From: Zoogloea sp.
GTDB taxonomy: Bacteria > Pseudomonadota > Gammaproteobacteria > Burkholderiales > Rhodocyclaceae
Length of the DNA stretch: 44,285 nucleotides
Direction of reading: 5' to 3'
Assembly: GCF_028689785.1 (NCBI RefSeq)
Contig: NZ_JAQVCN010000039.1
Span: 1 to 44,285, forward strand
Positions 303 to 38,987 of this stretch are shown one piece after another (within the stretch, counting starts at the first letter, position 1; each line of letters opens with the position of its first letter). The notes under the pieces were generated by a model. It was not told where the DNA came from. It did not search any database and saw only the letters and a list, made by a program, of their open reading frames with translations. Made by a program: the position numbers and the translations under genes.

Positions 303-1543
<1,241 letters not shown>

Positions 1544-1547
<4 letters not shown>

Positions 1548-2803
1548 ATGTTTTGACCGAGCGCCCCGCCCCCGGCTGGCACACCCCGGTGCCTGCCGGG
1601 CACCCGGCAGCCGGCCTGCTCACGGCGCGGGCGGTGCGCAGCCGCTGCAGCATCGTGATGGCCCAGGTGGAGTCCGGGCGCTCGCCGTTTTTCACCTGGC
1701 ACGCCGAGTGCCTGCCCTTGTGTGCCGAGTACGTGGCTCACACCATCCGCCTCAACTACCCGGATCTGAACGTGCCCTACCATGCCCGCTGGCGCCATTT
1801 CGAGGCCGGCGGGGTAGACCGCTGGGGCGCCCTGCTGGCCCGCGCCGGCCTGGCCGGTGACCCCATCGAGGCGGCCCGGGTGGCGGTGGACCTGGTGATC
1901 CCCAGCGTGCTGCTGGATGCCGGCGCCGGCCCCGACTGGCACTACCGGGACGCAGACAGCGGCCAGCGCCTGAGCCGCTCGGAGGGCCTCGGCGTGGCCA
2001 GCCTGGCGCTGTTTGCCGGGGGTGCCCTGTCGGCCGATGCAGCCCGGCCCCTGCGCTGCGACGCCAGCGCCCTGATCAATCTGGCACCGCAGACCCTGGC
2101 CGATGCCTTCCAGGTCGGCCCGTCCAACCCGCTGGTCGGGCTGGACGGTCGCCTGGCCCTGCTGCAGCGCCTCGGCGCGGTGATGGCCGCCACGCCGGCA
2201 GTGTTCGGCACGCCAGGCCGGGCCGGCGGGCTGGTGGACTATCTGCGTGCTCACGCCATGGGCGGGCGGGTGGCGGCGTCCTTCATCCTCGAAACCCTGC
2301 TGCGCGCCCTGGGCCCCGTCTGGCCCGGCCGCCTGACCCTGAAAGGGGTGTCCCTGGGCGACTGTTGGGGCCACCCAGGGCCGGAAGACGGCCTGCTGCC
2401 CTTCCACAAGCTCACCCAGTGGCTCACCTATTCCCTGCTCGAACCCCTGGAGGCCGCCGGCCTGAGCATTACCGGCCTGGACGAGCTGACCGGCCTGCCG
2501 GAATACCGCAACGGCGGCCTGCTGCTGGACTTCAAGCTGATCCAGCCTCGGGACCAACGTTTCTGGACCCACCCGTGGACGGTGGATGCCCCTTCCATCG
2601 TCGAATGGCGGGCGCTCACGGTGATCGGCCTCGACCGCCTCGCCGATGCCGTGCGCGATGAGCTGGGAGTGAGTGCCGAGGCCTTTCCCCTGGCCCGGGT
2701 GCTGGAAGGGGGCACCTGGTCGGCTGGCCGGCGTATCGCCGCCCAGCGCCGCCCCGGGGGTGGGCCTCCGCTCCACATCGTCAGCGACGGTACTGTCTTT
2801 TAG
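1544..2803 (+). CDS. DUF1688 (URC4/Urg3-like) protein of uracil catabolism
   Basis: A 419-residue protein with the DUF1688 signature: PSVLLDAGAGPDWHY near residues 116-130, then a SRSEGLGVAS segment, and a C-terminal region rich in conserved Trp (FWTHPWTVDAPSIVEWRALT). DUF1688 proteins are the URC4 component of the yeast and bacterial URC pathway. Their chemistry is not established; a ribosyl-urea step has been proposed from genetics. The start overlaps the stop of the URC1-like gene by four bases, so the two are translationally coupled. No membrane segment or signal peptide is seen. Confidence 0.88.
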
Positions 2804-2827
2804 AAACCCTACGTGCCGGAGGACACC

Positions 2828-3460
2828 ATGACCGCCCCCCTCACTGTCATCGACCACCCCCTGCTGCAGCACAAACTGTCCATGGCCCGCAGTGCCGACA
2901 CCACCACCGACAACTTCCGCCGTCTGGTGCGGGAGATCGCCGCCATGCTGGCCTACGAGGTGACCCGCGACCTGCCCACCGAGATGATCAAGGTCACCAC
3001 CCCGGTGGCGGATTGCGAGGTGCCGGTGATCAGCGGCAAGAAGCTGTGTCTGGTGTCCATCCTGCGGGCCGGCAACGGCATGCTCGACGGCATGATCGAT
3101 CTGCTGCCCGGCGCCCGGGTGGGGCACATCGGCCTGTACCGCGACCCGGAAACCCTGGAGGCCATCGAGTACTACTTCAAGCTGCCCGAGGATGTGGAAG
3201 ACCGCCTGGTGATCGTTGTTGACCCCATGCTGGCCACCGGCAACTCGGCCGGCGCGGCCCTGTCGCGGCTCAAGGAGGCGGGCGTCTCCAGCCTCAAGTT
3301 CGTGTGCCTGCTGGCGGCGCCCGAGGGCATCGCCGCCCTCCAGGCGGCCCATCCGGATGTGCCCATCACCACCGGTGCGGTGGACAGCCACCTCAACGAG
3401 CACGGCTACATCGTGCCCGGCCTGGGCGATGCGGGAGACCGCATCTTCGGCACCAAATGA
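2828..3460 (+). CDS. upp: Uracil phosphoribosyltransferase
   Basis: A 210-residue protein, the normal Upp length (E. coli 208). It converts uracil and PRPP to UMP. The PRPP-binding loop DPMLATG is at residues 132-138 and the C-terminal uracil-binding region reads [16 protein letters not shown] chose the ATG at 2828 because GGAGG at 2818-2822 is well placed; a GTG at 2813 would add five residues. In URC clusters an Upp homologue (URC6 in yeast) makes the UMP that feeds the pathway. Its presence after the URC1/URC4 genes supports that role as well as ordinary salvage. The stop overlaps the next gene's ATG. Confidence 0.95.
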
Positions 3461-4098
3461 CGGCAGCGGCGCCTGTGCCGCGGGAGGACGGGCGGGGCGG
3501 GCGCATCCGCCAGCAGCAGGAGGGCGCCATCCTCCAGGCCGCCGAGCAGGTGTTCGCCCGGGCCGGCTTCCAGGGCGCCACCATGGCCGAGATCGCCCTG
3601 CGCGCCGGCCTGCCCAAGTCCAACCTGCATTACTACTTCGGCACCAAGGCCGAGGTCTACCGCGCCGTGCTCGGCCACATCCTGCGCCTGTGGCTGGCCG
3701 AGACCGACAGCATCACCCCCGACGCCGACCCCCGCGAGGCCCTGGGCCATTACATTGCGGCCAAGATGCGCCTCAGCGCCGAGCGCCCCGATGCCTCCCG
3801 GGTGTTTGCCAACGAGCTCCTCCACGGCGCCCCCGAGATCGGCGACTATCTGCGCGGCGAGCTGCGCGCCCTGGTGGCCGACAAGGCCCAGGTGATCGAG
3901 GGCTGGATTGCCGAAGGGCGCATGGCCCCGGTGGACCCGGTGCATCTCTTCATCAGCCTGTGGGCGCTGACCCAGACCTACGCCGATTTCGAGACCCAGG
4001 TGTGTGCCGTGCTCGGCCGCACGGCGCTGGGGCCCGATGATTACCGGCGTGCCACGGCCCACGTGCAGGCCCTGGTGCTGCGCGGCTGCGGGCTTTGA
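3457..4098 (+). CDS. rutR: RutR-like TetR-family repressor
   Basis: A 213-residue TetR regulator starting at an ATGA overlap with upp. The N-terminal helix-turn-helix spans about residues 25-70 ([20 protein letters not shown]). The C-terminal domain strongly resembles E. coli Rut[16 protein letters not shown], then [14 protein letters not shown], then [14 protein letters not shown] match RutR position by position. RutR is a uracil-responsive repressor. The consensus RutR site at 269-284 upstream of this operon makes autoregulation likely. What differs from E. coli is the target: URC genes rather than the rut operon. Confidence 0.88.
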
Positions 4099-4125
4099 TC
4101 CAATCACACAGCGAGGAATGACGCC

Positions 4126-5436
4126 GTGTTCGACCTGATCCTGCGCCAGTGCACCCTGCCCGATGGCCGCGCCGGCATCGACATCGGTATCCGCGACGGC
4201 CGCATCGTGGCCGTGGAGGCGGGGCTGGCGGCCACAGCCGGCGAAGTCATCGACGTGGCCGGGCAACTGGTCACTCCGCCCTTCGTGGATGCCCATTTCC
4301 ATATGGACGCCACGCTGTCCTACGGGCTGCCGCGGGTCAATCAGAGCGGTACCCTGCTGGAGGGCATCGCCCTGTGGGGCGAGCTGAAACCCCTGCTCAC
4401 CCAGGAGGCCCTGGTGGAGCGCGCCCTGGCCTATTGCGACTGGGCCGTGGCCAAAGGCCTGCTGGCCATCCGCAGCCACGTGGACGTGTGCGACCCGCGC
4501 CTGCTGGCGGTGGAGGCCCTGCTGCACGTGAAGGAGAAGGTGCGCCCCTATATCGACCTGCAGCTGGTGGCCTTTCCCCAGGACGGTGTGCTGCGGGCGC
4601 CCGGGGCGCTGGACAATCTCAAACGCGCCCTCGCCATGGGTGTGGATGTGGTGGGCGGCATTCCGCACTTCGAGCGCACCATGGCCGACGGTGCCGAGTC
4701 GGTGCGCATCCTGTGCGAGCTGGCGGCCGAACTCGGCCTGCCGGTGGACATGCACTGCGACGAGTCCGACGACCCGCTGTCGCGGCACATCGAGACCCTG
4801 GCCTTCCATACCCGGCGCCTGGGGCTGCAGGGGAGGGTGGCGGGTTCTCACCTCACCTCCATGCATTCCATGGACAACTACTACGTCTCCAAGCTGCTGC
4901 CCCTGATCGCCGAGGCCGGCGTGGCTGCCATCGCCAACCCCCTCATCAACATCACCCTGCAGGGCCGCCACGATACCTACCCCAAGCGCCGTGGCATGAC
5001 CCGGGTGCCCGAGCTGCTGGCGGCCGGCGTGCCGGTGGCCTTCGGCCACGACTGCGTGATGGACCCGTGGTATTCCCTGGGCAGCGGCGACATGCTGGAG
5101 GTGGCCGCCATGGGCCTGCACGTGGCCCAGATGACCGGCCAGGACGGCATGCGTGCCTGCTTCGCGGCCGTCACCGAGACCCCGGCGCGCATCCTCGGGC
5201 TACAGGGCTACGGCATCGCCCCCGGCTGCCGCGCCGATCTGGTGGTGCTCCAGGCCGGCGACCTCATCGAAGCCCTGCGCCTGCGCGCCCCCCGCCTGCT
5301 GGTGCTGCGGGGCGGCCAGATCATTGCCCGTACTCCCCCGGCTGTTGCCACCCTGGATCTCCCCGGCAGGCCTGGAAGCGTCGATTTCCGTCGCCCCTGC
5401 GGAAGAGGCACGATCGACGGTCAGGCGACGCGTTGA
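4126..5436 (+). CDS. codA: Cytosine deaminase
   Basis: A 436-residue amidohydrolase-superfamily protein that would deaminate cytosine to uracil, supplying the cluster's substrate. Visible motifs are HFHMDATLSYG with metal ligands H57 and H59, the VDMHCDESDDP loop, and FGHDCVMDPWYSLGSGDML, which is characteristic of CodA. The start is GTG at 4126 with GAGGA at 4113-4117; the nearby ATG at 4118 is out of frame. Residues after about 405 are a low-similarity tail. It is the last gene of the cluster, 27 bases after the regulator. It is cytosolic, with no signal peptide. Confidence 0.92.
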   Translation: MFDLILRQCTLPDGRAGIDIGIRDGRIVAVEAGLAATAGEVIDVAGQLVTPPFVDAHFHMDATLSYGLPRVNQSGTLLEGIALWGELKPLLTQEALVERALAYCDWAVAKGLLAIRSHVDVCDPRLLAVEALLHVKEKVRPYIDLQLVAFPQDGVLRAPGALDNLKRALAMGVDVVGGIPHFERTMADGAESVRILCELAAELGLPVDMHCDESDDPLSRHIETLAFHTRRLGLQGRVAGSHLTSMHSMDNYYVSKLLPLIAEAGVAAIANPLINITLQGRHDTYPKRRGMTRVPELLAAGVPVAFGHDCVMDPWYSLGSGDMLEVAAMGLHVAQMTGQDGMRACFAAVTETPARILGLQGYGIAPGCRADLVVLQAGDLIEALRLRAPRLLVLRGGQIIARTPPAVATLDLPGRPGSVDFRRPCGRGTIDGQATR

Positions 5437-11428: not shown

Positions 11429-12280
11429 TCAGAACACCCGATTCACCGAGGCGATCCACGTCCCGGCGTTCATGTCCTTGGTGGTGCCATTGCCGGCCAC
11501 GCTGGGGTAGTTCTTCCAGTAGTCGGCGCCGACGGTGGTGGTGTAGGCCAGGCCGAGGGTCCAGGCGCCGGGCAGGGTCTTGGTCACGCCCACCTTGTAG
11601 TCGCTGTAGTCCAGGCCCTTGGAGTTGGCGATGGTCTGGCGGCCGGCGTGGAGGGTGGCGGTCCAGGTGGGGAGGAATTCGTAGGCGATGTTCGCCTCGA
11701 TGTACCAGGAGCCGGTGGTGTCCTTGCCGGTGACGCCCGCGTTCGGCTTGTTGGGGAAGGCGCCGAAGCCGGCGTTGTTGCTGGTGAAGCCAAAGTAGCC
11801 CACGTCGGTGAGGGCGCGGGAGTACTTGACGTTCAGCCACTGCCAGGTCCCCGACAGATAGAGCTCGGTGGTGTCGTAGGTCTTGCTGGCGTAGCTGCCG
11901 GCGGGGGTGATCTTGTCGTAGTTGGCCTTCGGGAAGATGAACTGCAGCAGGCCCACGTCGTAGCTGAAGTCACCCACCGCGCCCCGGTAGCCGCCGTAGA
12001 GGTCGATCTCCACATTGGCGTTGGCGTAGAGGTTGGCGCTGGTGTTGGACATCCAGGCGCCGGCATAGAAGCCGGAGGCGTGGGCGTAGTCCACGCCGCC
12101 CTGGATGGCCGGGTTGCCCCAGGTCTGGCGGATGCCGCGGAACACGTATTCCGAAACCAGGCCGATGTTGGTGGTGAGCTCCGGCGCGGCGGCCGGGGCT
12201 TCTTCCGCGAAGGCGGGGGCGACGAGGGCGGGCAGGCCGATCAGCAGGCCGGTTCTCACTGTCCGAAGTGCGGTTTTCAT
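11429..12280 (-). CDS. TorF-family putative outer-membrane porin
   Basis: A 283-residue protein with signal peptide (GLLIGLPALVAPAFA, cleavage near residue 25). The mature protein opens with LTTNIGLVSEYVFRGIRQT, the signature of the TorF / TIGR02001 family. A beta-barrel follows with alternating aromatic strands and a C-terminal Phe (VNRVF). Members of this family are found in outer membranes; the solute is unknown. The start at 12280 has AGAGG ten bases upstream. It is divergent from the APC permease and N-demethylase genes, sharing a 174-base promoter region. A role in uptake for that pathway is possible. Confidence 0.85.
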   Translation of the reverse strand: MKTALRTVRTGLLIGLPALVAPAFAEEAPAAAPELTTNIGLVSEYVFRGIRQTWGNPAIQGGVDYAHASGFYAGAWMSNTSANLYANANVEIDLYGGYRGAVGDFSYDVGLLQFIFPKANYDKITPAGSYASKTYDTTELYLSGTWQWLNVKYSRALTDVGYFGFTSNNAGFGAFPNKPNAGVTGKDTTGSWYIEANIAYEFLPTWTATLHAGRQTIANSKGLDYSDYKVGVTKTLPGAWTLGLAYTTTVGADYWKNYPSVAGNGTTKDMNAGTWIASVNRVF

Positions 12281-12454: not shown

Positions 12455-14149
12455 ATGAACACGACGACAGTGGATGCCGTGGCAAGCGGCATCGGGAGCG
12501 GCGGCGCCAGCGCGACGCTCCATCGCAAGATCGGCTGGGCGGGCGCCTTCTGGGTGGCCAGCGGGGTTCCGGCCCTGGTCCTTTTTTCCATCGGCTCCAT
12601 CGCCGCCACGGTGGGCAAGCCCTCCTGGGCGGTGTGGATCATTTCCATCGCCTTCGGCTTCCTGCAGTCCTTTTCCTACGCTGAGATCGCTGGCCTCTTT
12701 CCGCACAAATCGGGCGGTGCGTCGGTGTATGGGGCGGTGGCCTGGGTGCGCTACAGCAAGATGCTGGCGCCCCTGTCGGTGTGGTGCAACTGGCTGGCCT
12801 GGTCGCCGGTGCTGGCCATCGGCTCGGGGCTGGCGGCGGGCTACATCCTGTCCATCCTGTTTGCGCCGGATGCAGCCATCAACACCTGGCAGATCACCCT
12901 GCTGGACCTCTCCGGCATCAAGGCAGGGCTGTCCCTGCGCATCAACGCGACCTTCGTGCTGGGGGCGGCGGTGCTGCTGGCGGCCTTTGCCATCCAGCAC
13001 CGGGGCATCCTGCAGGCGGCGCGCATGCAGATGGTGCTGGGGGTTGCCGCGCTGGCGCCGCTGATGCTGATCGGCCTGTGGCCGCTGCTCTCGGGGGATG
13101 TGCCCTCCGCCAACCTGACGCCCCTCTACCCCCTGGCCAAGGACGCCGGCGGTGCGGTGATCGACGGCGCCTGGGACATGGCCGGGCTGACCCTGATCGC
13201 CGGCGGCCTGTTCATGGCGGCCTGGTCCACCTACGGCTTCGAAACGGCGGTGTGCTACACCCGCGAGTTCCGCAACCCGCGCACCGACACCTTCAAGGCC
13301 ATCCTGTATTCGGGCCTGCTGTGCATCTTCGTGTTCACGGTGGTGCCCCTCGCCTTCCAGGGCAGCTTGGGCCTTGGCCAGCTGGTCACGCCCGCGGTGC
13401 TGGATGCCGCCGGCAATGTGGTCACTCCGGCGGTTTATGACGGCATCCTGTCGCCGGACATCTACAGCGGCATGGGTGTGGCCCAGGCCATGGCCCACAT
13501 GCTGGGTGGTGGCCCGCTGATTGAGCATGTGCTGATGGCCATGCTGGTGCTGGCCCTGGTGCTGTCCATCATGACCTCCATGGCGGGTTCCTCGCGCACC
13601 CTGTACCAGGCCTCGGTGGATGGCTGGCTGCCCAAGTATCTGTCCCATGTGAATGCCAACGGTGCGCCGATCCCGGCCATGTGGACCGACCTGGGCTTCA
13701 ACCTGATCCTGCTGCTGATGTCCGACTACGTCTTCGTGCTGGCCATTTCCAACGTCTGCTACATCCTCTTCAACTTCCTCAACCTCAACGCCGCCTGGAT
13801 CCACCGGATCGACCGCCCGAGCTGGCCGCGCCCCTTCAAGGCGCCCACCTGGCTGATCGCCATCGGCACCGTGCTGGCCTTCGTCAATCTGGCGCTGATG
13901 GGCATGGGCGCCGACATCTGGGGCGCGGGCACCCTGGCCACCGGCCTGCTGGCGGCGGCGATGATCCTGCCGGTGTTCTTCTACCGTCACTACATCGTCG
14001 ACAAGGGTGAATTCCCCGCCGCGATGCAGGAAGACATGCACCTGGGCAGCGAAGCGGGCGTTGGCACCCGCGCCGGCATCCTGCCTTACCTGACCCTGGC
14101 CGGCGGTGCGGCGCTGATCGCCATCGCCCACGCCATGGCCGTGCTCTGA
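12455..14149 (+). CDS. APC-superfamily amine/amino acid permease
   Basis: A 564-residue inner-membrane transporter with about 12-13 hydrophobic helices. The N-terminal region has the APC-type GWAGAFWVASGVPALVLFSIG helix, and an AAWSTYGFETAVCYTREFRNP segment resembles the amino acid/ethanolamine permease consensus. The start at 12455 has GAGGAG at 12442-12447. It is followed after 11 bases by the DmmA-like gene with its own GGAGG. Co-transcription suggests it imports the N-methylated substrate. The substrate cannot be named from sequence. Confidence 0.85.
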   Translation: MNTTTVDAVASGIGSGGASATLHRKIGWAGAFWVASGVPALVLFSIGSIAATVGKPSWAVWIISIAFGFLQSFSYAEIAGLFPHKSGGASVYGAVAWVRYSKMLAPLSVWCNWLAWSPVLAIGSGLAAGYILSILFAPDAAINTWQITLLDLSGIKAGLSLRINATFVLGAAVLLAAFAIQHRGILQAARMQMVLGVAALAPLMLIGLWPLLSGDVPSANLTPLYPLAKDAGGAVIDGAWDMAGLTLIAGGLFMAAWSTYGFETAVCYTREFRNPRTDTFKAILYSGLLCIFVFTVVPLAFQGSLGLGQLVTPAVLDAAGNVVTPAVYDGILSPDIYSGMGVAQAMAHMLGGGPLIEHVLMAMLVLALVLSIMTSMAGSSRTLYQASVDGWLPKYLSHVNANGAPIPAMWTDLGFNLILLLMSDYVFVLAISNVCYILFNFLNLNAAWIHRIDRPSWPRPFKAPTWLIAIGTVLAFVNLALMGMGADIWGAGTLATGLLAAAMILPVFFYRHYIVDKGEFPAAMQEDMHLGSEAGVGTRAGILPYLTLAGGAALIAIAHAMAVL

Positions 14150-14160
14150 GGAGGCTCGCG

Positions 14161-14742
14161 ATGCTGCACTCCGACATCAAGAGCCGCCCGGTCTACCGGG
14201 CCCTGGAGCCCGACCTCTCCGCCGCCGGCCACCTGCTGGTGATCGAGACGGCCACCCTGCAGCCCGGCGGGCTGGCCAGCCTGGCCGATGCCTTCGCCCC
14301 GGTGGCGGCAAAGCTGCACACCTGGCTGGTGGGCGAGGCGCAGGCCGTGCCCGGCCTCGGCAAGCCCTGGCACCTGCCCGCGGTGGCCGACGTGGTGGAC
14401 GCCCTGGCCTGTGCCACCCGGGGCTACGGCATCGGCGACCGGCTGTATGTGCAGGGCACCGAGCCCTTTCTGTGGTCGGTGGCCACCGCCGCGGCCATCG
14501 TCGGCTTCGGCCCCGACCAGATCCGGCTGTGTCATGCGGGCAGCCTGCAGCGCCGGGTGTGGTGCACCCACTGCCACGGCTTCACCGAGCCGGTCACCAC
14601 CAACGTGGTGCCCTGTGCCGGCTGTGGCCGCCACCTGCTGGTGCGCGACCACTTCTCCCGCCGCCTGGGCGCCTTCATGGGTGTGATGGTGGATACCGAA
14701 GCGCCTGGCGAGGTTCCGGCCATCGAGGAGGTCTTCGCATGA
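14161..14742 (+). CDS. DmmA-like subunit of dimethylamine monooxygenase / oxidative N-demethylase
   Basis: A 193-residue protein matching the DmmA-like family, which accompanies the heme-dependent oxidative N-demethylase (HODM). The C-terminal third carries a zinc-ribbon pattern: CTHC at about residues 138-141 and CAGC about 15 residues later, followed by RHLLVRDHFSRRLGAFMGV. It corresponds to the small third subunit of the HODM complex, whose role is structural or unknown. Its stop overlaps the reductase start (ATGA), so the two are coupled. Confidence 0.78.
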   Translation: MLHSDIKSRPVYRALEPDLSAAGHLLVIETATLQPGGLASLADAFAPVAAKLHTWLVGEAQAVPGLGKPWHLPAVADVVDALACATRGYGIGDRLYVQGTEPFLWSVATAAAIVGFGPDQIRLCHAGSLQRRVWCTHCHGFTEPVTTNVVPCAGCGRHLLVRDHFSRRLGAFMGVMVDTEAPGEVPAIEEVFA

Positions 14743-15689
14743 TCGGCGACACCCTCCTGTTGCAGGTGGCGGCGGTGACCGACATCGCCCCCGGCCTGCG
14801 TCACCTGCGCCTGGTGGCGGCCGACGGCGGCAAGCTGCCCCCGGCGGCGGCCGGTGCCCACGTCCAGTTTGTGCTGGAAGGCGCGGCGCGCACCTGGCGC
14901 AACGCCTACTCCCTGGTCAGCCGGCCCGGAGCCCGGGATGCCTGGGAGATCATCGTGCGCCGGGTGCCCACTTCCCGCGGTGGTTCGGCCTTCATCCACG
15001 AACAGATCAAGGTTGGCGACCGCCTGGTGGCCGGCTGGCCGGGCAACCTCTTTGCGCCGGTGCGCATCGCCCGCCACCACCTGATGATTGCCGGCGGCAT
15101 CGGCATAACGCCCTTCCTGTCCTACCTGGCCGAGTTCGGCTTCACCGGCGCCGGCCATGCCCTGCACGTGTGTTGCCGGGAAGGCGAGAAGGATGTCTTC
15201 GGCCCCTGGCTGGGCAACAGCCCGGCCGTTGCCTTCCACTGGGACGCCGACGGGCACCGCCTGGACATCCCGGCCCTGCTGGCCAGCCAGCCGGCGGGCA
15301 CCCACCTCTACGTGTGTGGCCCGGCGGCCATGAACGACGAAGTGATGGCAGCCGCCGCCGCGGCCGGCTGGCCCGCCAGCCATGTGCATTGCGAGCACTT
15401 CGGCTCGGCCCTGTCTGGTGGCGACCCCTTCCGTGCCTTCCTGGCCCGCTCGGGCATCGAAGTGGACGTGGCCGAGGACGAAAGCCTGCTCGACGCCATC
15501 GAGCGTGCCGGCGTGGCCGCCCCCTGCCTGTGCCGGGGCGGTGCCTGCGGCGTATGCGTCACCCCTCTGCTGGAAGGGGAGGCCGAGCACCGCGACCACT
15601 TTCTGTCCGCCGAAGAACGTGCCGCCGGCCGCCTGATCATGCCCTGCGTCTCGCGGGCCAGGGCAGGGCGGTTGGTCCTGGATTTGTGA
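14739..15689 (+). CDS. FMN/2Fe-2S reductase subunit of the N-demethylase (DmmB-like)
   Basis: A 316-residue protein of the phthalate-dioxygenase-reductase type. The flavin-binding motif RNAYSLVS is near residues 54-61 and the nicotinamide-binding GGIGITPFLSYLAEFG near 118-133. A C-terminal plant-type ferredoxin domain has CLCRGGACGVC and a final MPCVSRA cysteine. It passes electrons from NAD(P)H to the heme subunit. The start overlaps the DmmA-like stop by four bases. Alone it could be read as a vanillate O-demethylase reductase. The DUF3445 and DmmA-like neighbours decide for an N-demethylase. Confidence 0.88.
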   Translation: MIGDTLLLQVAAVTDIAPGLRHLRLVAADGGKLPPAAAGAHVQFVLEGAARTWRNAYSLVSRPGARDAWEIIVRRVPTSRGGSAFIHEQIKVGDRLVAGWPGNLFAPVRIARHHLMIAGGIGITPFLSYLAEFGFTGAGHALHVCCREGEKDVFGPWLGNSPAVAFHWDADGHRLDIPALLASQPAGTHLYVCGPAAMNDEVMAAAAAAGWPASHVHCEHFGSALSGGDPFRAFLARSGIEVDVAEDESLLDAIERAGVAAPCLCRGGACGVCVTPLLEGEAEHRDHFLSAEERAAGRLIMPCVSRARAGRLVLDL

Positions 15690-15694
15690 AACCG

Positions 15695-15755
15695 CTGTAG
15701 GGGCGACTTCCGTCGCCCAACCCACCCCCGCGGGCGACTGAAGTCGCCCCTACAG
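15695..15755. repeat. REP-like element (GGCGACT arm type) inside the N-demethylase operon
   Basis: CTGTAGGGGCGACTTC (15695-15710) and GAAGTCGCCCCTACAG (15740-15755) are perfect 16-base inverted repeats. The interior also pairs in part. The element fills the gap between the reductase stop and the DUF3445 start. Its last bases join the AGGAG (15753-15757) used as ribosome-binding site by the next gene. Confidence 0.88.
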
Positions 15756-15764
15756 GAGACCGAC

Positions 15765-16835
15765 ATGAGCATCGCTTTCAAGCCCGAAGAAACCTTCCGC
15801 GGCGACTACAGCTACCGCAACAGCGACGCCGCCATCCTGCGCTTTCCCTTCCCCTTCCCGGAAGACAAGTACATGTACAGCGTCAACATCGAGCCCCATG
15901 TGCGCAGCGGCCCGAGCGACGTCTTCCTGCGCCCCTTCGACGTGGATGAGCACTACATCGCCGAATGCCGCGACCGGGCCATCACCCTGGAGCGCGACCC
16001 CGGCCGCTGCCAGGTGCTGCCCCACATGATGCTGGCCCAGTGGGACACCCTGGAGCTGCTGATGGAGAATCTGTCGGCCGACTACCCGGAGCATTTCTCT
16101 CTGGTCAAGGAGGGCGATGACTTCGGCAGCCGCTGGACCTGGACCAACCGGCCCCTGGGCATCGAGCAGAGCTTCATCTTCGGCGACGCCGCCACGCTGC
16201 CCTGCGAGCCCTTCGAATACATCACCCGCCAGGCCCAGGGTGACTTCGCCATCTGCGACCAGCGCGACGACAACCTCTACATGGATGCCGGCATGGTCAC
16301 CTCCCAGGCCGACTGGTCCCTGGAGTTCGACGTGGGCATGAGCTTCATGGAGTGGCACGGCCCGGTGCCCCTGGCCCACCAGACCGGCGTCTTCGAGCGC
16401 GCCCTCAAATACCTGCTGATGCTGCGCCTGGGCCAGCCGGTGCGCCGCCTCAACTGGACCATGACCATCAACCCGCGCCTCGACACCTCGCCCGAGAGCT
16501 TCCCCGAATGGGGCACTGACCGGGCCAGCGTGACCCCCGACAACGCCGGCCGCAAAGTGCACCTGCGGGTGGAGCTGCAAACCCTGTGGCGCCTGCCCCG
16601 CAGCAACGCAATCCTGTTCCCGATCCGCTGCTATCTCGCCTCCCTCGACGACCTGGCCCGGGTGCCCAAGTGGGGCGCCCGCCTGCACCGGGTGCTGTCC
16701 ACCCTGCCGCCCCAGCTCGTCGAATACAAGGGCCTCACCCGCTACCTGCCCGCCGCCCTGGAATGGCTGGCCCGCCACGACGACGGCCGCGAACTGCCGG
16801 TGGGCACCGAGGCCGGGGTCAGCACGCTGGGCTGA
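15765..16835 (+). CDS. DUF3445 heme-dependent oxidative N-demethylase, heme subunit (DmmC-like)
   Basis: A 356-residue DUF3445 protein. In the characterised HODM/dimethylamine monooxygenase this subunit is a heme-b PAS-fold enzyme that oxidises a secondary amine to an iminium ion, then amine plus formaldehyde. Family features seen include FPFPFPEDKYMYSVNIEP at the N-terminus and VHLRVELQTLWRLPRSNAI near residues 265-283, matching the (R)xExQTLxRLP signature. The start ATG has AGGAG eight bases upstream. The preceding gene encodes its electron donor. Substrate is probably dimethylamine or another N-methyl compound; the paralogous families differ in substrate and the sequence does not decide. 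Confidence 0.85.
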   Translation: MSIAFKPEETFRGDYSYRNSDAAILRFPFPFPEDKYMYSVNIEPHVRSGPSDVFLRPFDVDEHYIAECRDRAITLERDPGRCQVLPHMMLAQWDTLELLMENLSADYPEHFSLVKEGDDFGSRWTWTNRPLGIEQSFIFGDAATLPCEPFEYITRQAQGDFAICDQRDDNLYMDAGMVTSQADWSLEFDVGMSFMEWHGPVPLAHQTGVFERALKYLLMLRLGQPVRRLNWTMTINPRLDTSPESFPEWGTDRASVTPDNAGRKVHLRVELQTLWRLPRSNAILFPIRCYLASLDDLARVPKWGARLHRVLSTLPPQLVEYKGLTRYLPAALEWLARHDDGRELPVGTEAGVSTLG

Positions 16836-16842
16836 GTCTCCT

Positions 16843-16928
16843 GTGGGGTCGAATTCACTCGACCGCGGACTTCGATCACCGGCCTGCCAGTCATCTGGCG
16901 AGGGGAGGTCGAATGAATTCGACCCCAC
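16843..16928. repeat. REP-like element (GTCGAAT arm type), intact
   Basis: GTGGGGTCGAATTC at 16843-16856 pairs with GAATTCGACCCCAC at 16915-16928. Each arm is itself nearly palindromic around TCGAAT. The core GCGGACTTCGATCACCGGC is shared with other copies. It separates the DUF3445 gene from the ACAD-like gene and may end the upstream transcript. Confidence 0.88.
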
Positions 16929-17008
16929 GGGGTACGGCCCGAACCCGCTTCACCCGATCTGAATTTAACGAACCTGTCTTCTCAAACACTCACGTAAAGG
17001 ACATCACC

Positions 17009-18391
17009 ATGAACGCCATCACCCAAATGACCCCCGTCGGTATCGGCTCCGAATGGAGCCCCCAGTGGCTGCTCAGCGCCGAGCAGAAGGCCCTGCAGGC
17101 CGACCTGATCGCCCTGTGCGAAACCACCCTGCGCCCCAACGCCATCGAGAGCGACAAGGGCTATGTGTACCCCCGCAAGAACTTCGAAGCCCTGGCCGCC
17201 ATGGGCCTGATGAGCCTGACCGTGCCGAAGGATCTGGGCGGCCGCGGTGAGAGCCACCTGTGCGCCGCCATGGTGGTGGAGACCATCGCCCGCTACGGCT
17301 GCCCCTCCACCGCCATGTGCTACACCATGCACCTGGGCGCCTGTGCCGCGGCCCTCTTGCGCCACCACGACAACGAGCGCCTCAAGGACATCCTGCGCCG
17401 CGTGGACAAGGACGTGCTGATCGGCACCCTGTCCTACTCCGACCCGGAGACCGGCTCCCACTTCTGGTACCCCATGTCGTCCCGCGCCGAGCGCACCGAC
17501 GGCGGCTGGAAGGTCTTCAAGAAGGCTTCCTGGACCACCTCCGGCGGCTTTGCCGACTGGTACATCATCCAGACCACCTCGCCGGACTTCGGCGGCGACT
17601 ACTCCGACCTGTCCTGCTTCCTGGTCACCAAGGACCAGATCAAGGCCGACCCCGCCAACTGGGACGGCCTCGGCATGCGCGGCAACCAGTCAGGCCCGAT
17701 TTCGGTGGATGGCGTGGAGATCGCCCCGGACGCCCTGGTCGGCCCGGTGGGCGACGGCGCCAAGTCCAACGACGAGGTGGTGGACCCCTTCTTCCTGGTG
17801 TGCTCCTCGGCCTGCTGGAACGGCATCTGCCTGGCCGCCATGGACATCACCAAGAACCACACCACCCGCAAGGTGCACAACGACGTGGGCATGCGCGTGG
17901 CCGACTACCCCACCATCCAGGACTACGTGGGCGAGTGCCTGATCGACACCAACGCCAGCCGCAGCTACGTGTATCTGGCCGCCAAGGCCCTCGACGACCT
18001 GACCAACAACTGCGACTGGTCTGCCCATCGGGAGATCGCCCACCTGCCGCGTACCGGCATCCTCAACTGGCTGTGGCAGGTCAAGTTCTTCTCCTCCAAG
18101 AACGTCACCCACGTGGTGGACAAGATGCTCCACGCCTGCGGCGGCACCGGCTACAAGCCCGCCCTGGGCATCGAGCGCCTGCTCCGCGACGGCAAGGCCG
18201 GCTGGGTGATGGGCCCCACCAACGAAGTGCTGCGCCAGTTCGTCGGCAAGGCCGCGCTGCTCGGCTTCGAAGTGCTCGACTACTGGAACCAGGCGGTCAA
18301 TCAGCGCGTCCTCAACAATGAGCTGAAGAAGATGAGCAAGGAAGAGAAGGCCGCCTTCGCCACCAAGCTCCTCGCCGAAGCCCAGGCCTGA
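17009..18391 (+). CDS. Acyl-CoA-dehydrogenase-fold flavoprotein without the canonical catalytic Glu; possible two-component monooxygenase
   Basis: A 460-residue ACAD-fold protein. FAD-contact regions are visible (GTLSYSDPETGSHFW and ASWTTSGGFADWYIIQT), as is the C-terminal CGGTGYKPALGIERLLRDG motif. In the segment equivalent to YEGTxxxxR of medium-chain acyl-CoA dehydrogenase, this protein reads MGPTNEVLR. Gly402 therefore stands where the catalytic Glu would be. The next gene encodes a flavin reductase. Together this points to a group D flavin-dependent monooxygenase rather than a dehydrogenase, but some ACADs place the base elsewhere. AAAGGA precedes the ATG. The substrate is unknown; the neighbours suggest an N-methyl compound. 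Confidence 0.8.
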   Translation: MNAITQMTPVGIGSEWSPQWLLSAEQKALQADLIALCETTLRPNAIESDKGYVYPRKNFEALAAMGLMSLTVPKDLGGRGESHLCAAMVVETIARYGCPSTAMCYTMHLGACAAALLRHHDNERLKDILRRVDKDVLIGTLSYSDPETGSHFWYPMSSRAERTDGGWKVFKKASWTTSGGFADWYIIQTTSPDFGGDYSDLSCFLVTKDQIKADPANWDGLGMRGNQSGPISVDGVEIAPDALVGPVGDGAKSNDEVVDPFFLVCSSACWNGICLAAMDITKNHTTRKVHNDVGMRVADYPTIQDYVGECLIDTNASRSYVYLAAKALDDLTNNCDWSAHREIAHLPRTGILNWLWQVKFFSSKNVTHVVDKMLHACGGTGYKPALGIERLLRDGKAGWVMGPTNEVLRQFVGKAALLGFEVLDYWNQAVNQRVLNNELKKMSKEEKAAFATKLLAEAQA

Positions 18392-18406
18392 GCACGGGAG
18401 CCCGCC

Positions 18407-18955
18407 ATGCAAGCCGCCCTCCGCCAGCCTGCCCCGGTGTCTGCCGCGGCGCCCGCCCACCGGGCGCCGTTTGAAGGACGCCTGTTCCGCCGGGCCCTCG
18501 GCCTGTTTCCCACCGGCGTCACCATCGTCACCACCTGGGACGAACTGGGGCGGCCGGTGGGGGCCACCGTGAGCTCCTTCAACTCCGTGTCCATCGACCC
18601 GCCGCTGGTGCTCTTCAGCCTGGCGCGCAGCAGCGCCTGCTGTGACACCTTCGCCGCCGGCGGGCCGCTGGCCATTCATGTGCTCGACGCCGGTCAGTCC
18701 GAGCTCTCCAACCGCTTCGCCTGGGGCGGTGGAGACAAGTGGGCCGACCTGGATTACGCCACCGGCGAGCACGGGGCGCCGGTGTTCGACAGCGCCCTGG
18801 CTACTTTCGAATGCATGCCCTTCGCCCAGTACCCGGGCGGTGATCACATCATCTTCGTGGCCGAGGTGCGCCAGATGCGCTTTCAGGACGGCGAGCCGCT
18901 GGTATTCTGCGCCGGCGGCTACCGTCAGCTTATGGAAAAGGAGACCCGCGCGTGA
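18407..18955 (+). CDS. Flavin reductase-like (HpaC/DIM6 type) protein
   Basis: A 182-residue FMN-binding split-barrel protein of the short-chain flavin reductase family. Motifs are FPTGVTIVTT, GATVSSFNSVSIDPPLVLFSL and IIFVAEVRQMRF. These enzymes use NAD(P)H to make free reduced flavin for a partner oxygenase. It starts 15 bases after the ACAD-like gene and its stop overlaps the start of the DUF1989-GcvT gene (GTGA). It is thus in the middle of a coupled three-gene unit, which supports pairing with the ACAD-like protein. Confidence 0.85.
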   Translation: MQAALRQPAPVSAAAPAHRAPFEGRLFRRALGLFPTGVTIVTTWDELGRPVGATVSSFNSVSIDPPLVLFSLARSSACCDTFAAGGPLAIHVLDAGQSELSNRFAWGGGDKWADLDYATGEHGAPVFDSALATFECMPFAQYPGGDHIIFVAEVRQMRFQDGEPLVFCAGGYRQLMEKETRA

Positions 18956-20874
18956 ACGCCATCCTGCCCGGCCCCCTCGCTGCTGCACCCGATGCCGTCG
19001 AGCCGGAGGGCGACCCCTTCCTGCTCGCCGCCGAGGCGCCGCAAACCTGCGCCCAGGTCTTCCCCGAGCCGCTGGCGGTGATCCGCGTGGCAGCCGCCAC
19101 GGCCCGGGCCTTCGTGGTGAAGGCCGGGCAGTTCATCCAGGTCATCGACGTGGAGGGGCGGCAGTGTTCCGACCTGCTGGCCTTCGACGCCGCGGCCCTG
19201 GAGGTTGGCGACGAATGGGGCCTCGACCCCACCGTGACCCGCAGCCTCGCCGGCGCCGCCTACCCCCGGCCAGGCCTGCACGCCAAGTACTTCGACGCCC
19301 GCATGCAGCCCCTGCTCGAAACCGTGCAGGACACCGTCGGCCGCCACGACGCCTTCGCCCTGGCCTGCACCAGCAAGTATTACGACGATCTGGGCTTTCC
19401 CGGCCACGCCAACTGCAGCGACAACTTCAACGCGGCGCTGGAGGGCTTCGGCATCCGCCCGCGGGTGGGCTGGCCGGCCATCAACTTCTTCTACAACACC
19501 TTCATCCAGCCCTGCGGCAGCCTGGGTTTTGCCGAACCCTGGTCGAAGCCCGGCGACTACGTGCTGCTGCGCGCCTTGAAGGATCTGGTGGTGGCGGTGT
19601 CGTCCTGCGCCGACGACATCGACCCCGCCAACGCCTGGCAGCCCACCGACATCGAGGCGCGCATCTATGCCGCCGACCACTCCTTCCCCCGCGCGATGGC
19701 CCACCGCATGACGCCCGACTCCCCCGCCCGCCTGACCCGCCCGACGGCCTTCGCCCCGGTCACCGAAACCCTCACCCGGGACTTCATCGACTACAAGGGC
19801 TTCTGGTTGCCCCGGAGCTTTGTCGGCCACGGCACCCTGGCCGAATACTGGGCTTGCCGCGAGAAAGTGGCGGTCATGGACCTGTCGGCCCTGCGCAAGT
19901 TCGACGTATCCGGCCCCGACGCCGAGGCCCTGTTGCAGAAGGTGCAGACCCGCGACCTGCGCAAGCTTGCCGTCGGCCAGATCGTCTACACCGCCGTGTG
20001 CCACGCCCACGGCGGCATGATGGACGATGGCACGGTGTTCCGCATGAGCCGCGACGTCTTCCGCTTCGTCTGCGGCGAAGACACCACCGGCCTGTGGCTG
20101 AAGGAGCAGGCCGCCGCCGCCGGCTACGACGTGCACATCCGCGATACCACCGACGCCCTGCACAACCTGGCCGTGCAAGGCCCGAAGAGCCGCGAACTGC
20201 TCGGCCGCATGCTATGGACCGCCCCCGTTCAGCCCGGCATCGCCGAGCTCGGCTGGTTCCGCTTCACCGCCGCCCGCCTGGGCGGCCCCACCGGCATCCC
20301 GGTGGTGGTGTCGCGCACCGGTTACACCGGCGAGCTGGGCTTCGAGCTGTGGTGCCACCCCCGCGACGGCGCCGCGGTGTGGACCGCGGTGATGGAAACT
20401 GGCGCCCCCCTGGGCATCGTCCCCCTGGGTTTCGACGCCCTCGACATGCTGCGCATCGAAGCCGGCCTGGCCTTTGCCGGCCACGAGTTCTGCGACCAGA
20501 CCGACCCCTTCGAAGCCGGCATCGGCTTCACCGTGGCCCTCTCCAAACCCGAAGACTTCATCGGCAAGGCCGCCCTGGAAGAGCGCAAGGCCCACCCCCG
20601 CCGCAAGCTGGTCGGCCTCGCCATCGCCGGCAACGAAGCCGCCAGCCACGGCGACGGCATCTACCTGGGCCGCGCCAAGGTCGGGGAAATCACCAGCAGC
20701 GTCCGCTCCCCGGTGCTCAACACCCAGATCGCCCTGGCCCGGGTGGACGTGGCCTACTCGGCCCCGGAGACCGCGCTGCAGGTGGGGCAACTGGACGGGC
20801 ACCGCAAGCGGCTGGATGCCACGGTGTGTGCCTTCCCTCACTACGACCCGACCAAGGCGCGGGTGCGGGCCTGA
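18952..20874 (+). CDS. DUF1989-GcvT fusion protein (aminomethyltransferase-like)
   Basis: A 640-residue two-domain protein with a GTG start overlapping the flavin reductase stop. Residues about 25-245 are DUF1989 (VIDVEGRQCSDLLAF, GHANCSDNFNAALEGFGI, then INFFYNTFIQPCG). This domain is known from the urea-carboxylase-associated / carboxyguanidine deiminase proteins. Residues about 270-630 are a GcvT aminomethyltransferase domain with GGMMDDGTVFR (conserved folate-pocket Asp), RTGYTGELGFELW and a C-terminal barrel. GcvT-type subunits bind THF and capture formaldehyde or an iminium carbon. It may be the THF-binding subunit for the upstream oxidases. What the DUF1989 half does here is not known. 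Confidence 0.85.
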   Translation: MNAILPGPLAAAPDAVEPEGDPFLLAAEAPQTCAQVFPEPLAVIRVAAATARAFVVKAGQFIQVIDVEGRQCSDLLAFDAAALEVGDEWGLDPTVTRSLAGAAYPRPGLHAKYFDARMQPLLETVQDTVGRHDAFALACTSKYYDDLGFPGHANCSDNFNAALEGFGIRPRVGWPAINFFYNTFIQPCGSLGFAEPWSKPGDYVLLRALKDLVVAVSSCADDIDPANAWQPTDIEARIYAADHSFPRAMAHRMTPDSPARLTRPTAFAPVTETLTRDFIDYKGFWLPRSFVGHGTLAEYWACREKVAVMDLSALRKFDVSGPDAEALLQKVQTRDLRKLAVGQIVYTAVCHAHGGMMDDGTVFRMSRDVFRFVCGEDTTGLWLKEQAAAAGYDVHIRDTTDALHNLAVQGPKSRELLGRMLWTAPVQPGIAELGWFRFTAARLGGPTGIPVVVSRTGYTGELGFELWCHPRDGAAVWTAVMETGAPLGIVPLGFDALDMLRIEAGLAFAGHEFCDQTDPFEAGIGFTVALSKPEDFIGKAALEERKAHPRRKLVGLAIAGNEAASHGDGIYLGRAKVGEITSSVRSPVLNTQIALARVDVAYSAPETALQVGQLDGHRKRLDATVCAFPHYDPTKARVRA

Positions 20875-20949
20875 CGAGCTCCCCTGGTGGGAGGGAGGCT
20901 CCGTACGGGGAAGGACGCCATGCCCAGGCCCCGCGCTGCCTGTCTCCCT

Positions 20950-21035
20950 GTGGGGTCGAGTTCATTCGACCGCGGACTTGTGATCACCGGCATGTCGATG
21001 GTGTGGCGTGTCGAGGTCGAATGAATCGAATCTCC
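20950..21035. repeat. REP-like element (GTCGAAT arm type), decayed right arm
   Basis: GTGGGGTCGAGTTCATTCGACCGC begins at 20950 with the shared core GGACTTGTGATCACCGGCATG. The right arm reads GAGGTCGAATGAATCGAATC, diverged from the usual GAATTCGACCCCAC. Confidence 0.75.
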
Positions 21036-34334: not shown

Positions 34335-35858
34335 GTGCTCCATCGTTATCCCCTGCTGTCCCGTTTGAGCTTGATGCTGGCCTGCCTGGCCAGCCTGGCG
34401 GTGGGCCTGTTCTTCAGCGCCGGCCTGGCCGTGCGCCTGGAACTGGCGGCCCGGGCCGCCCCGGGCGGCGAGCTTGCGTCACGCCTGGCTGGGGTGGTGT
34501 TGATGCAGGCGGTGCTGGCCCTGCTGTTTCTGGTGGGCTGCGCCCTGATCGTGCGCGGCGCCTGGAAGGTGCTGGCCCTGCGCACCGATCTCGCCCTGGC
34601 GAGGGTGGCCGCGCACACCGCTGGTGCGGTGGCGGCACCGGCCGGGGGCGCAGACGAGATCGACCGCCTGGTGCGTGCCCTGGACGGGGTGGCCGACCAG
34701 CTGGGCGGGCGCCTGGCCGACGGCGAGCGCCTGTCCCGCCACGCCCGCGAGCAGGAGCGCTTTGCCGCCCGCTCCCTGGAATTCATCTACCGGGCCTGTG
34801 CCTGTCTGGCCGAGAACAGCGCCAGTACGCCCTGGCTGACCGCTCTGCTGGAGGACATGGCGGACTGCCTGCAGGCCCGCTGCTGTTCCCTGGCGCTTCT
34901 CGACCTGGTGGCCGAAGGGCTGGGCGTGCCGGCCCAGCTGGGCGCACCGCGGCTGGCCCGTCTGCTCGACGAGTTTGACGCGGAGGTGCTGGCCCGGGGC
35001 GGCGGCCTGCGCCGCTCGGTGTCCGGCCCGGCGGGGGAGATCGTCGAGCTGGCCGTGCCGGTGCGCGACGCCGACAACATCTACGGGGTGCTGATCGTCG
35101 AGGCACCGGGCGAATTCCTTTTCGAGAGCCGTCACAGCCGCCTGGTGGATGCCCTGGCCGCGCTGTTCGCCCTGTCCCTCGGCAACCTGCAGCGCAACCA
35201 GCGCCGCCGCCGGCTGGCCCTGATGGACGAACGCAATGCCATTGCCGGCGAGCTCCATGATTCCCTGGCCCAGGCCCTCTCCTACATGAAATTGCAGATC
35301 GCCCGCCTGCAGCTGGAGATCGGCCGCAGCTGCGCCGCCTGCGCCCCCGGCGGGCGGGTGCTGGAGGTGTCGGCGGAGATCAAGACCGGGCTGGACAGTG
35401 CCTACCGCCACCTGCGCGAGCTGCTCTCCGCCTTCCGCACCAGCATGCCGCCAGGGGGCTTGCAGCAGGCCCTGCGCGAGGTGGTGGAGGAGCTGTCGGC
35501 CCGGGCCGGCACCGAGATCGGGCTGGACTACCGGCTTGGTGACGCGTCCCTGTCGGTGAATGAGGAGTTCCACCTGCTGCAGATCGTCCGTGAGGCTCTG
35601 ACCAACGTGATTCGCCACGCCCGTGCCGACCATGCCCTGATCCGCCTCGACTGCATCGAAGGGGGAGAGGTGCGGGTGCGGGTGGAGGACGACGGCCGCG
35701 GTATCCAGCCCGACAGCGGCGGCGAAGGCCACCACGGTGTCTCCATCATGCGCGAACGGGCTCGCCAGCTGGGGGGCAGCCTGAGCCTGCAGGCCGGCAG
35801 CGACGACCTGGGCACCTGCGTCGAGATGCGCTTTCGCCCCCGCGCGGCGGGCACCTGA
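34335..35858 (+). CDS. NarX-type sensor histidine kinase
   Basis: A 507-residue kinase of the HisKA_3 family. Two transmembrane helices (about 14-34 and 52-74) bracket a very short periplasmic loop. A HAMP-like linker and a GAF-like region (about 150-285) follow. The phospho-acceptor H308 lies in AIAGELHDSLAQALSYMKLQ, and the ATPase domain has TNVIRHARADHALI and EDDGRGIQ. Cysteines cluster at 154/156, 178, 183/184 and CAACAPGG after the H-box, which could sense redox state. The start is GTG 34335 without a clear ribosome-binding site; an ATG at 34374 is possible. It is paired with the response regulator 22 bases downstream. Confidence 0.88.
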   Translation: MLHRYPLLSRLSLMLACLASLAVGLFFSAGLAVRLELAARAAPGGELASRLAGVVLMQAVLALLFLVGCALIVRGAWKVLALRTDLALARVAAHTAGAVAAPAGGADEIDRLVRALDGVADQLGGRLADGERLSRHAREQERFAARSLEFIYRACACLAENSASTPWLTALLEDMADCLQARCCSLALLDLVAEGLGVPAQLGAPRLARLLDEFDAEVLARGGGLRRSVSGPAGEIVELAVPVRDADNIYGVLIVEAPGEFLFESRHSRLVDALAALFALSLGNLQRNQRRRRLALMDERNAIAGELHDSLAQALSYMKLQIARLQLEIGRSCAACAPGGRVLEVSAEIKTGLDSAYRHLRELLSAFRTSMPPGGLQQALREVVEELSARAGTEIGLDYRLGDASLSVNEEFHLLQIVREALTNVIRHARADHALIRLDCIEGGEVRVRVEDDGRGIQPDSGGEGHHGVSIMRERARQLGGSLSLQAGSDDLGTCVEMRFRPRAAGT

Positions 35859-35880
35859 ACCCGATGACTCAAACAAGGAA

Positions 35881-36588: not shown

Positions 36589-36604
36589 GGGAGTCAAAGC
36601 ACCC

Positions 36605-36690
36605 GTGGGGTCGAATTCATTCGACCTCAGCCCGCCAGATCATCGACATGCCTGTGACCAAAGTCCGCGGTCGAATGAATTCGACCCCAC
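36605..36690. repeat. REP-like element (GTCGAAT arm type), core inverted
   Basis: GTGGGGTCGAATTCATTCGACC (36605-36626) pairs with the mirror-image arm ending at 36690. The core reads ATCGACATGCCTGTGACCAAAGT, the reverse-complement orientation relative to the copy at 16843. Confidence 0.88.
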
Positions 36691-36741
36691 GGGGGCGTCG
36701 CGGGCTTCCGGCTGCCCGCGCTGCCGCGCCCCTCTCCCTGA

Positions 36742-37957: not shown

Positions 37958-37984
37958 GCTCCCGCCCCCGGGGCTGCATCTCCT

Positions 37985-38069: not shown

Positions 38070-38123
38070 AAAAGCACCAGCCCATGCCGCGCCCAGCCCC
38101 CCCGACAATAAAAGGAAAACAGC

Positions 38124-38987
<864 letters not shown>

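Follow-up and report, generated by a model that had tools for sequence, protein, structure and literature searches.

A short trimethylamine N-oxide demethylase homologue in Zoogloea adjoins a predicted ACAD-fold replacement for trimethylamine monooxygenase

Which enzyme supplies trimethylamine N-oxide (TMAO) to a TMAO demethylase (Tdm) homologue in a genome in which the trimethylamine (TMA) monooxygenase Tmm finds no match? The question is raised by a cluster of seven genes (12455-20874, plus strand) in a 44,285-nt stretch of Zoogloea sp. (NZ_JAQVCN010000039.1), here called the window, in whose numbering all coordinates are given. An APC-family permease gene (12455-14149) is followed by genes for the DmmA-like small subunit (14161-14742), the 2Fe-2S reductase subunit (14739-15689) and the DUF3445 haem alpha subunit (15765-16835) of a dimethylamine monooxygenase (HODM, or DmmABC), and then by a trio comprising an acyl-CoA dehydrogenase (ACAD)-like flavoprotein (17009-18391), a flavin reductase (18407-18955) and a DUF1989-GcvT fusion (18952-20874). 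We consider it likely, at a probability of roughly 0.75, that the ACAD-like protein and the flavin reductase are the oxygenase and reductase components of a two-component TMA N-oxygenase of ACAD fold, which has replaced Tmm without being homologous to it.

The original prediction for this stretch had named the seven genes, in this order and on one strand, and annotation with Pfam and NCBIfam bears this out, with every frame open; the interval that it gave, 14161-20874, holds six co-directional genes, the permease gene lying directly upstream of it. The trio does follow the HODM genes, as had also been stated, with a gap of 173 bp between the two sets that is partly filled by a repeat resembling repetitive extragenic palindromes (REP-like; 16837-16931). 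The DmmA and reductase genes overlap by 4 bp, as do the genes for the flavin reductase and the fusion, and 15 bp separate the ACAD gene from that of the flavin reductase. The same arrangement is seen again in relatives and therefore is not a product of chance.

The fusion sets the frame for the question. It carries PF09347 (DUF1989; 147.3 bits) followed by PF01571 (220.7 bits) and PF08669 (60.1 bits), and it aligns with the solved TMAO demethylase PDB 9q59 over residues 37-639 (819.5 bits) and with the TMAO demethylase model NF053776 over positions 155-763 of 763 (1061.3 bits, below the equivalog cut-off of 1100). At 640 residues, against the 763 positions of the model, the window protein lacks the N-terminal domain: 72 codons of open frame precede its DUF1989 core, with no match to a hidden Markov model (HMM) of that domain. 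The score below 1100 goes with this missing domain, and we therefore call the protein a short-form Tdm homologue, predicted to convert TMAO into dimethylamine and formaldehyde. Short Tdms beside Tmm score lower still against NF053776 (822 and 783 bits), and a partial Xanthobacter Tdm beside an ACAD gene reaches 1212 bits, above the cut-off and exceeding four of five full-length plasmid Tdms. The DUF1989 and GcvT core and the metal ligands are common to the window protein and Tdm as solved and modelled (PDB 9q59, 9q5a; NF053776). The metal-site residues given in passages of PMC12560246, in Methylocella silvestris numbering, are D198, C263, H276, C279, C343 and D346; with an offset of 124 taken from an alignment, their window equivalents are D74, C139, H152, C155, C219 and D222. 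The first five are identical in 89 of 89 Tdm sequences and the sixth in 88 of 89. A role in guanidine or methylguanidine degradation, considered on the strength of DUF1989 alone, was rejected in view of the near full-length alignment with TMAO demethylase; DUF1989 models associated with urea amidolyase score far lower (88.9 and 56.3 bits).

The permease (AA_permease_2) passes the NCBIfam equivalog model for a trimethylamine N-oxide permease (NF053774; 847.8 bits, cut-off 690), and all three HODM subunits are present in one cluster: the DmmA-like protein (PF22289, PF22290; NF041259 at 101.7 bits, cut-off 60), the reductase with Fer2 and NAD-binding domains, and the HODM_asu-like haem subunit (PF11927, 229.9 bits). 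The tetrahydrofolate-binding, GcvT-like HODM subunit (DmmD), which the original prediction had listed as a known part of that enzyme, is not in the interval; a DmmD-like GCV_T protein, which shares 65% identity with an aminomethyltransferase family protein encoded next to the dmm genes of Paracoccus aminovorans, lies about 16 kb downstream, outside the main cluster (36827-37957, plus strand). Given this separate DmmD, the fusion was rejected as the folate subunit of HODM. A one-carbon (C1) branch follows, with a formyltetrahydrofolate deformylase-like gene (PurU, named by analogy with an annotated tdm neighbour; 38124-38987, plus strand; Formyl_trans_N) and a methylene-tetrahydrofolate dehydrogenase/cyclohydrolase gene (FolD; 39270-40175, plus strand; THF_DHG_CYH, THF_DHG_CYH_C). 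By homology, the locus would encode a route from TMA through TMAO and dimethylamine to methylamine, with DmmABC in the third step. The interpretation first proposed is partly supported: the architecture, in which the trio oxidises an N-methyl compound, has a folate-type domain and passes a secondary amine to HODM, was read correctly; the larger N-methyl or guanidino-type substrate found no support, the fusion being a homologue of TMAO demethylase and the permease passing the TMAO model, and TMA is the likely substrate of the trio.

As a whole, this route is known. In Ruegeria, according to passages of PMC5520151 and PMC13390433, Tmm oxidises TMA to TMAO, Tdm splits TMAO and DmmABC oxidises dimethylamine; DmmD is described there as a GcvT protein with a Methylocella homologue, and aerobic TMA oxidation is taken to begin with Tmm, whose gene serves as a marker for it. 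With the Tmm-Tdm-DmmDABC pathway of Ruegeria pomeroyi, M. silvestris and Paracoccus, the window shares the permease type, the Tdm core, DmmABC, DmmD and the proposed substrates; it differs in that the Tdm has no N-terminal domain, in the distance of DmmD and, above all, in that the Zoogloea genome has the ACAD-like protein and flavin reductase instead of a match to Tmm. On plasmids, five annotated stretches, each some 20 kb long, from Paracoccus aminophilus, P. aminovorans, Aquabacterium, Rhizobium and Thioclava, carry Tdm together with Tmm, DmmA, the reductase, DUF3445 and an aminomethyltransferase; Tmm directly precedes Tdm in three of the five clusters, heads the same cluster in P. aminophilus and lies about 3 kb past Tdm, on the opposite strand, in Rhizobium. 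A search for the ACAD gene on plasmids gave no match at 1e-80. The earlier suggestion of a possibly undescribed pathway thus narrows to its first enzyme, which would be new and probably a second kind of TMA monooxygenase. No link of an ACAD-like enzyme with TMA or Tdm was found in the titles, opening lines of abstracts and passages of the open-access literature searched, a body of text that excludes most subscription papers.

Is Tmm really missing, and does the ACAD gene take its place? The Tmm query (Aquabacterium P0009, 829.6 bits against NF058570, cut-off 675) has no match at E 0.001 in the window's own genome, which is 98.84% complete, and an FMO-family search of that genome gave two weak matches; the query matches clearly in other genomes and so is not at fault. 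Tdm is present in 27 of 398 genomes drawn from the phylum of the host, the own genome included, and the other 26 have Tmm in 25 cases and ACAD in none (E 1e-60). A second draw, of 292 genomes from the phylum of G039 (the genome of locus L060, a Synechococcales record), holds three genomes with Tdm: G039, in which ACAD is present and Tmm absent, and two others in which Tmm is present, about 1 kb and 0.2 kb from Tdm, and ACAD absent. When the own genome and G039 are set aside, the two draws together contain 28 Tdm genomes, 27 with Tmm and none with ACAD. Seen from the other side, 48 of 50 ACAD genomes (chosen from 80 loci to thin Zoogloea and short contigs) have Tdm; DUF3445 is found in 21 and has no match at cut-off in 29, which indicates that ACAD and Tdm form the stable unit, with or without the HODM genes. 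ACAD is tied to Tdm, and ACAD and Tmm replace each other mutually.

The 80 loci, found by ACAD sequence alone, are the best 80 of 104 relatives, rich in Zoogloea, with identities of 65-98% (up to 98% to Zoogloea records). Their hosts include Zoogloea, Azoarcus, Caballeronia, Xanthobacter, Labrys, Dongia and other Proteobacteria, and records labelled Acidobacteria, Latescibacterota, Gemmatimonadota, Armatimonadetes and cyanobacteria. Of the 55 loci with at least 3 kb on either side, 43 have Tdm no more than 3 kb from ACAD, in 40 cases on the strand of ACAD itself, and 48 have it within 10 kb; 32 have a flavin reductase on the ACAD strand at a distance of up to 3 kb, and two (L029 and L040) have Tmm. 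A permease relative is present in 22 and DUF3445 in 27. The original prediction was to be refuted if the trio never co-occurred with DUF3445 genes elsewhere; this check was run and did not refute it.

A tree of Tdm cores shows how the two partners are distributed over the history of the demethylase. With 70 rows, the ACAD label needs 10 changes (8 if two rows with both partners are set aside), and at least seven changes are forced by supported branches; trees with one change make up 0% of the bootstraps, and the data reject a tree that groups the 44 ACAD-linked rows as one clade against the 24 Tmm-linked rows (its log-likelihood is 525 lower; p-AU 3.5e-100). L119 and L120, both Tmm-linked, lie inside a supported cyanobacterial group, the order within which is not resolved, Tmm-linked L111 falls among ACAD rows of Rhodospirillales type (support 98/92), and Tmm-linked L089 and L090 stand beside Xanthobacter (90/89, short of firm support). 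On a quick tree of 89 rows made earlier, 8 changes were needed, of which 4 were forced; this tree left out L088 (a copy of the window), L032 (a fragment) and any core below 400 residues, and the 70-row tree also left out L114 and 20 further rows, mostly near-copies. For rows L089-L113 the label Tmm denotes genome-wide presence, and three Labrys genomes labelled ACAD also carry Tmm elsewhere in the genome. Since two families have repeatedly been swapped beside one enzyme, they most probably make the same product, here TMAO; of the arguments for the proposed function, we regard this as the strongest.

The alternative that survives best, itself unlikely, is that the ACAD-like protein and reductase mainly N-oxygenate another small tertiary amine (for example dimethylethanolamine, N,N-dimethylglycine or N-methylated cyclic amines) or act on dimethyl sulfide (DMS), in which case Tdm would act on that N-oxide or on imported TMAO only. 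According to passages of PMC13352529, DMS-pathway enzymes of the two-component type are promiscuous and also accept related substrates, and with no HODM match at cut-off in 29 ACAD genomes the trio is not tied to a single downstream route. Against this, the permease of the window cluster passes the TMAO model, and the intermixing of ACAD- and Tmm-linked Tdms on the tree, with metal ligands unchanged, gives no sign of a changed Tdm substrate.

What sort of protein would stand in for Tmm? The flavoprotein has acyl-CoA dehydrogenase domains by Pfam, and its AlphaFold model (pLDDT 80.6, pTM 0.83; 39 sequences) and alignments together predict an ACAD fold without the ACAD catalytic bases. Aligned with solved dehydrogenases, it has MGP in place of YEG at the MCAD-type catalytic position and DPF in place of DYE at the IVD-type position, the two positions which we take to be the catalytic Glu sites; the Gly of MGP and the Phe of DPF are invariant in 81 of 81 aligned family members, so that neither known base position is Glu. 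Further strongly conserved stretches read SDPETG-HFWYP and WTTS-GFADWY. A 'flavin-containing monooxygenase' (5z8t) ranks third among the structural matches and DszC 24th; no open-access paper naming PDB 5z8t or 5gj7 was found. The nearest relatives of the flavin reductase (PF01613, 132.1 bits) are FerA and the reductase components of oxygenases of the two-component type (FerA 141.2 bits, HsaB 118.2 bits, both under cut-off).

An ACAD fold with a paired flavin reductase, as in the window, also characterises the group D two-component monooxygenases (DszC, HsaA and Dms1-3 of Acinetobacter baylyi), to two of which, DszC and HsaA, the ACAD-like protein shows low similarity. In passages of PMC13352529, two-component ACAD-fold enzymes, the Dms enzymes published in 2026, oxidise the small hydrophobic DMS to its oxide, dimethyl sulfoxide, and Tmm oxidises DMS too. 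Tmm, an FMO-type (class B; NF058570) enzyme, would share with the window pair the reaction from TMA to TMAO and the place beside Tdm; it belongs to a family unrelated to the ACAD-like protein and takes NADPH itself (passages of PMC13352529).

In the mechanism that we propose, the flavin reductase would make reduced flavin at the expense of NAD(P)H, and the ACAD-like protein would bind this flavin and, with O2, form a flavin hydroperoxide that oxygenates the nitrogen of TMA to yield TMAO. The Zn/Fe DUF1989 site of the short Tdm would, by homology, then cleave TMAO into dimethylamine and formaldehyde, and its GcvT domain may hand the formaldehyde to tetrahydrofolate. By homology again, DmmABC (14161-16835) would convert dimethylamine into methylamine and DmmD, PurU and FolD would process the C1 units. 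Methylamine is probably taken by a GmaS-like ligase together with the products of N-methylglutamate-synthase-like genes, all encoded elsewhere in the genome.

The flavoprotein might alternatively act as an amine dehydrogenase or oxidase and take a methyl group directly from TMA (or dimethylamine), with no N-oxide formed, Tdm separately handling imported TMAO, a possibility that we regard as distinctly improbable. Its ACAD fold, its nearer sequence kinship to dehydrogenases and the several ACAD loci that have no neighbouring flavin reductase would suit such an enzyme, as would the fact that amine oxidation needs no glutamate base. A bypass of TMAO would make Tdm needless, however, yet Tdm is in nearly all of the ACAD genomes (48/50), and a reductase of two-component type adjoins ACAD in 32 of the 55 loci. 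That the ACAD gene is a mere accessory of Tdm, for example in formaldehyde or redox handling and with no part in making its substrate, is very improbable: the tie of ACAD to Tdm and not to the HODM genes would fit, but an accessory would not replace Tmm and be replaced by it, and Tdm alone converts TMAO fully (passages of PMC12560246).

A number of observations weigh against a TMA N-oxygenase. The best structural match of the ACAD-like protein is isovaleryl-CoA dehydrogenase (TM 0.89 by target), and by sequence it scores higher against dehydrogenases (FadE16 at 197 bits, short of the cut-off of 600; PDB 3pfd at 99 bits) than against the group D monooxygenases DszC (54 bits) and HsaA (45 bits), which speaks against counting it as just another member of the proven group D families. 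To our knowledge, no member of the ACAD-like family has a known activity. No flavin reductase was found near ACAD in cyanobacterial loci. Tmm is present in 6 of the 50 ACAD genomes, which accordingly have both enzymes; the genomes of L022 and L013, from Xanthobacter autotrophicus and an Azoarcus strain, are among those with no Tmm match. Tdm is missing at cut-off in two of the 50, one of which keeps a partial Tdm match near ACAD (L052), the other being the genome of L056. Genome G117 (locus L114) has a divergent Tdm, 48% identical, with neither Tmm nor ACAD, and may use another partner or another substrate. A TMAO permease would allow direct uptake of TMAO, so that the presence of Tdm alone does not call for a TMA oxygenase, and co-occurrence alone cannot fix a substrate.

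With these points taken into account, we also think it probable that such pairs form a second class of TMA monooxygenase, two-component and of ACAD fold, which is spread over several phyla, from Zoogloea and Xanthobacter to cyanobacteria, Gemmatimonadota and Latescibacterota, and has been swapped with Tmm beside the same demethylase several times. Were this so, surveys based on Tmm would overlook TMA degraders in groups such as Zoogloea, Xanthobacter and cyanobacteria, the oxidation of TMA to TMAO would have evolved at least twice from unrelated flavoproteins, and a function would be assigned to a conserved ACAD family that matches no NCBIfam equivalog model.

Could the missing N-terminal domain be a mark of the ACAD-linked Tdm? 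In passages of PMC12560246 the domain is termed ubiquitous, sequences with a query cover of 90% or less having been discarded beforehand. We find it (HMM score above 20 bits) in 26 of 60 ACAD-linked Tdm rows, which include the window twice and the fragment L032; the HMM was trained on Tmm-linked rows, which match by construction. It was not found by this HMM in the rows from the Zoogloea-Azoarcus-Caballeronia set, cyanobacteria or Armatimonadetes, and the frames of two Tmm-linked Tdms, at 632 (L119) and 611 (L120) codons from stop to stop, leave no room for it. Loss of the domain as a mark of the ACAD type was accordingly rejected, since the 26 ACAD-linked rows keep it and the two Tmm-linked Tdms lack it by frame length. 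Judged by its distribution among the sequences, the domain is not a fixed feature of Tdm and would be dispensable in nature.

A conserved protein of about 170 residues, with no Pfam match in the members scanned, accompanies short Tdms (L053:7116-7643, L060:14198-14713, L119:7355-7993, L120:9792-10322 and relatives). Of the 15 ACAD loci from cyanobacteria and Armatimonadetes that have Tdm, 14 carry it directly after Tdm, and the remaining one (L057) ends at that point; in most of the 14 it starts within 25 bp of the end of Tdm, and it also follows Tdm in both Tmm-linked loci, L119 and L120. The presence of this protein after Tdm in ACAD- and Tmm-linked loci alike indicates that the clusters differ in the first enzyme and otherwise agree. 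It matches the GcvT part of Tdm weakly (up to 22.8 bits); the idea that it is the missing N-terminal domain was rejected, since a profile comparison gave E 0.43 and the GcvT part was resembled instead. It is perhaps a GcvT-like partner subunit of the short Tdm.

The further neighbours of ACAD were clustered for 64 loci (L003-L015, L026, L068 and L082 left out), each cluster being annotated from one or two members. An ammonium-transporter cluster occurs in 16 loci, a glutamate-synthase-like FMN protein in 10 and GmaS-like ligases in 8 (one cluster), which fits amine use. A small conserved protein with no Pfam or NCBIfam match (L030:9511-9942 and relatives) occurs in 8 loci, where it adjoins the glutamate-synthase-like gene; in 4 of the 8 it lies within 100 bp upstream of ACAD. 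An ACAD gene with a flavin reductase also occurs at L056 (10001-11350), in a 1.6-Mb metagenome-assembled genome labelled Euryarchaeota, with neither Tdm nor Tmm at the cut-offs.

Amine use also fits the cyanobacterial loci, 12 of which have a copper amine oxidase directly after ACAD; a PhyH-type oxygenase is likewise present in 12, in most cases directly before the ACAD gene. Examples of these genes in ACAD-Tdm loci are L053:15-989 and L052:11501-13432, with relatives. Of the 50 ACAD genomes, the 11 from cyanobacteria gave no DUF3445 match at cut-off, and the dimethylamine step must therefore be carried out otherwise there. The PhyH-type oxygenase and the copper amine oxidase are perhaps other enzymes for dimethylamine and methylamine, and our guess is that the PhyH-type protein takes the dimethylamine step.

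For the methylamine step in Zoogloea, another contig holds a gene of the glutamine synthetase family, cut by the contig end, that is 48% identical over 229 residues to the P. aminovorans glnT/GmaS query. It is followed by a class II amidotransferase and then by a GXGXG-like frame (29.5 bits, cut-off 32.5; cut by the end of the locus). GmaS-like, amidotransferase and GXGXG-type genes also stand beside Tmm-Tdm in P. aminovorans, in a different order, and the methylamine step is therefore probably present in this Zoogloea genome.

Some further features of the window may bear on regulation and uptake. A histidine kinase and a LuxR-type response regulator (34335-36588) lie directly before dmmD. Relatives are found in the ACAD loci of Azoarcus, Parazoarcus and Caballeronia, in that of one Zoogloea, and close to the Aquabacterium cluster, which is of Tmm type; the pair is a candidate pathway regulator. 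A promoter scan found none. REP-like palindromic repeats, GGGTCGAATTCATTCGACC and the variant GGGGCGACTTCAGTCGCCC, occur in several intergenic gaps (16837-16931, 20944-21026, 36602-36702, 37979-38081, 39134-39185 and 44081-44154), and one pair of them occupies part of the gap upstream of the ACAD gene. On the minus strand before the permease, a Gcw_chp outer-membrane protein (11429-12280) is 46% identical to the 'TorF family putative porin' adjoining tmm-tdm in Aquabacterium and is also found in 13 Zoogloea-type ACAD loci; it is possibly a porin for TMA or TMAO. At the start of the window, genes for a GTP cyclohydrolase-like protein, DUF1688, a uracil phosphoribosyltransferase and an amidohydrolase lie in series (303-5436), a row that we take to resemble a uracil-catabolism (URC) cluster.

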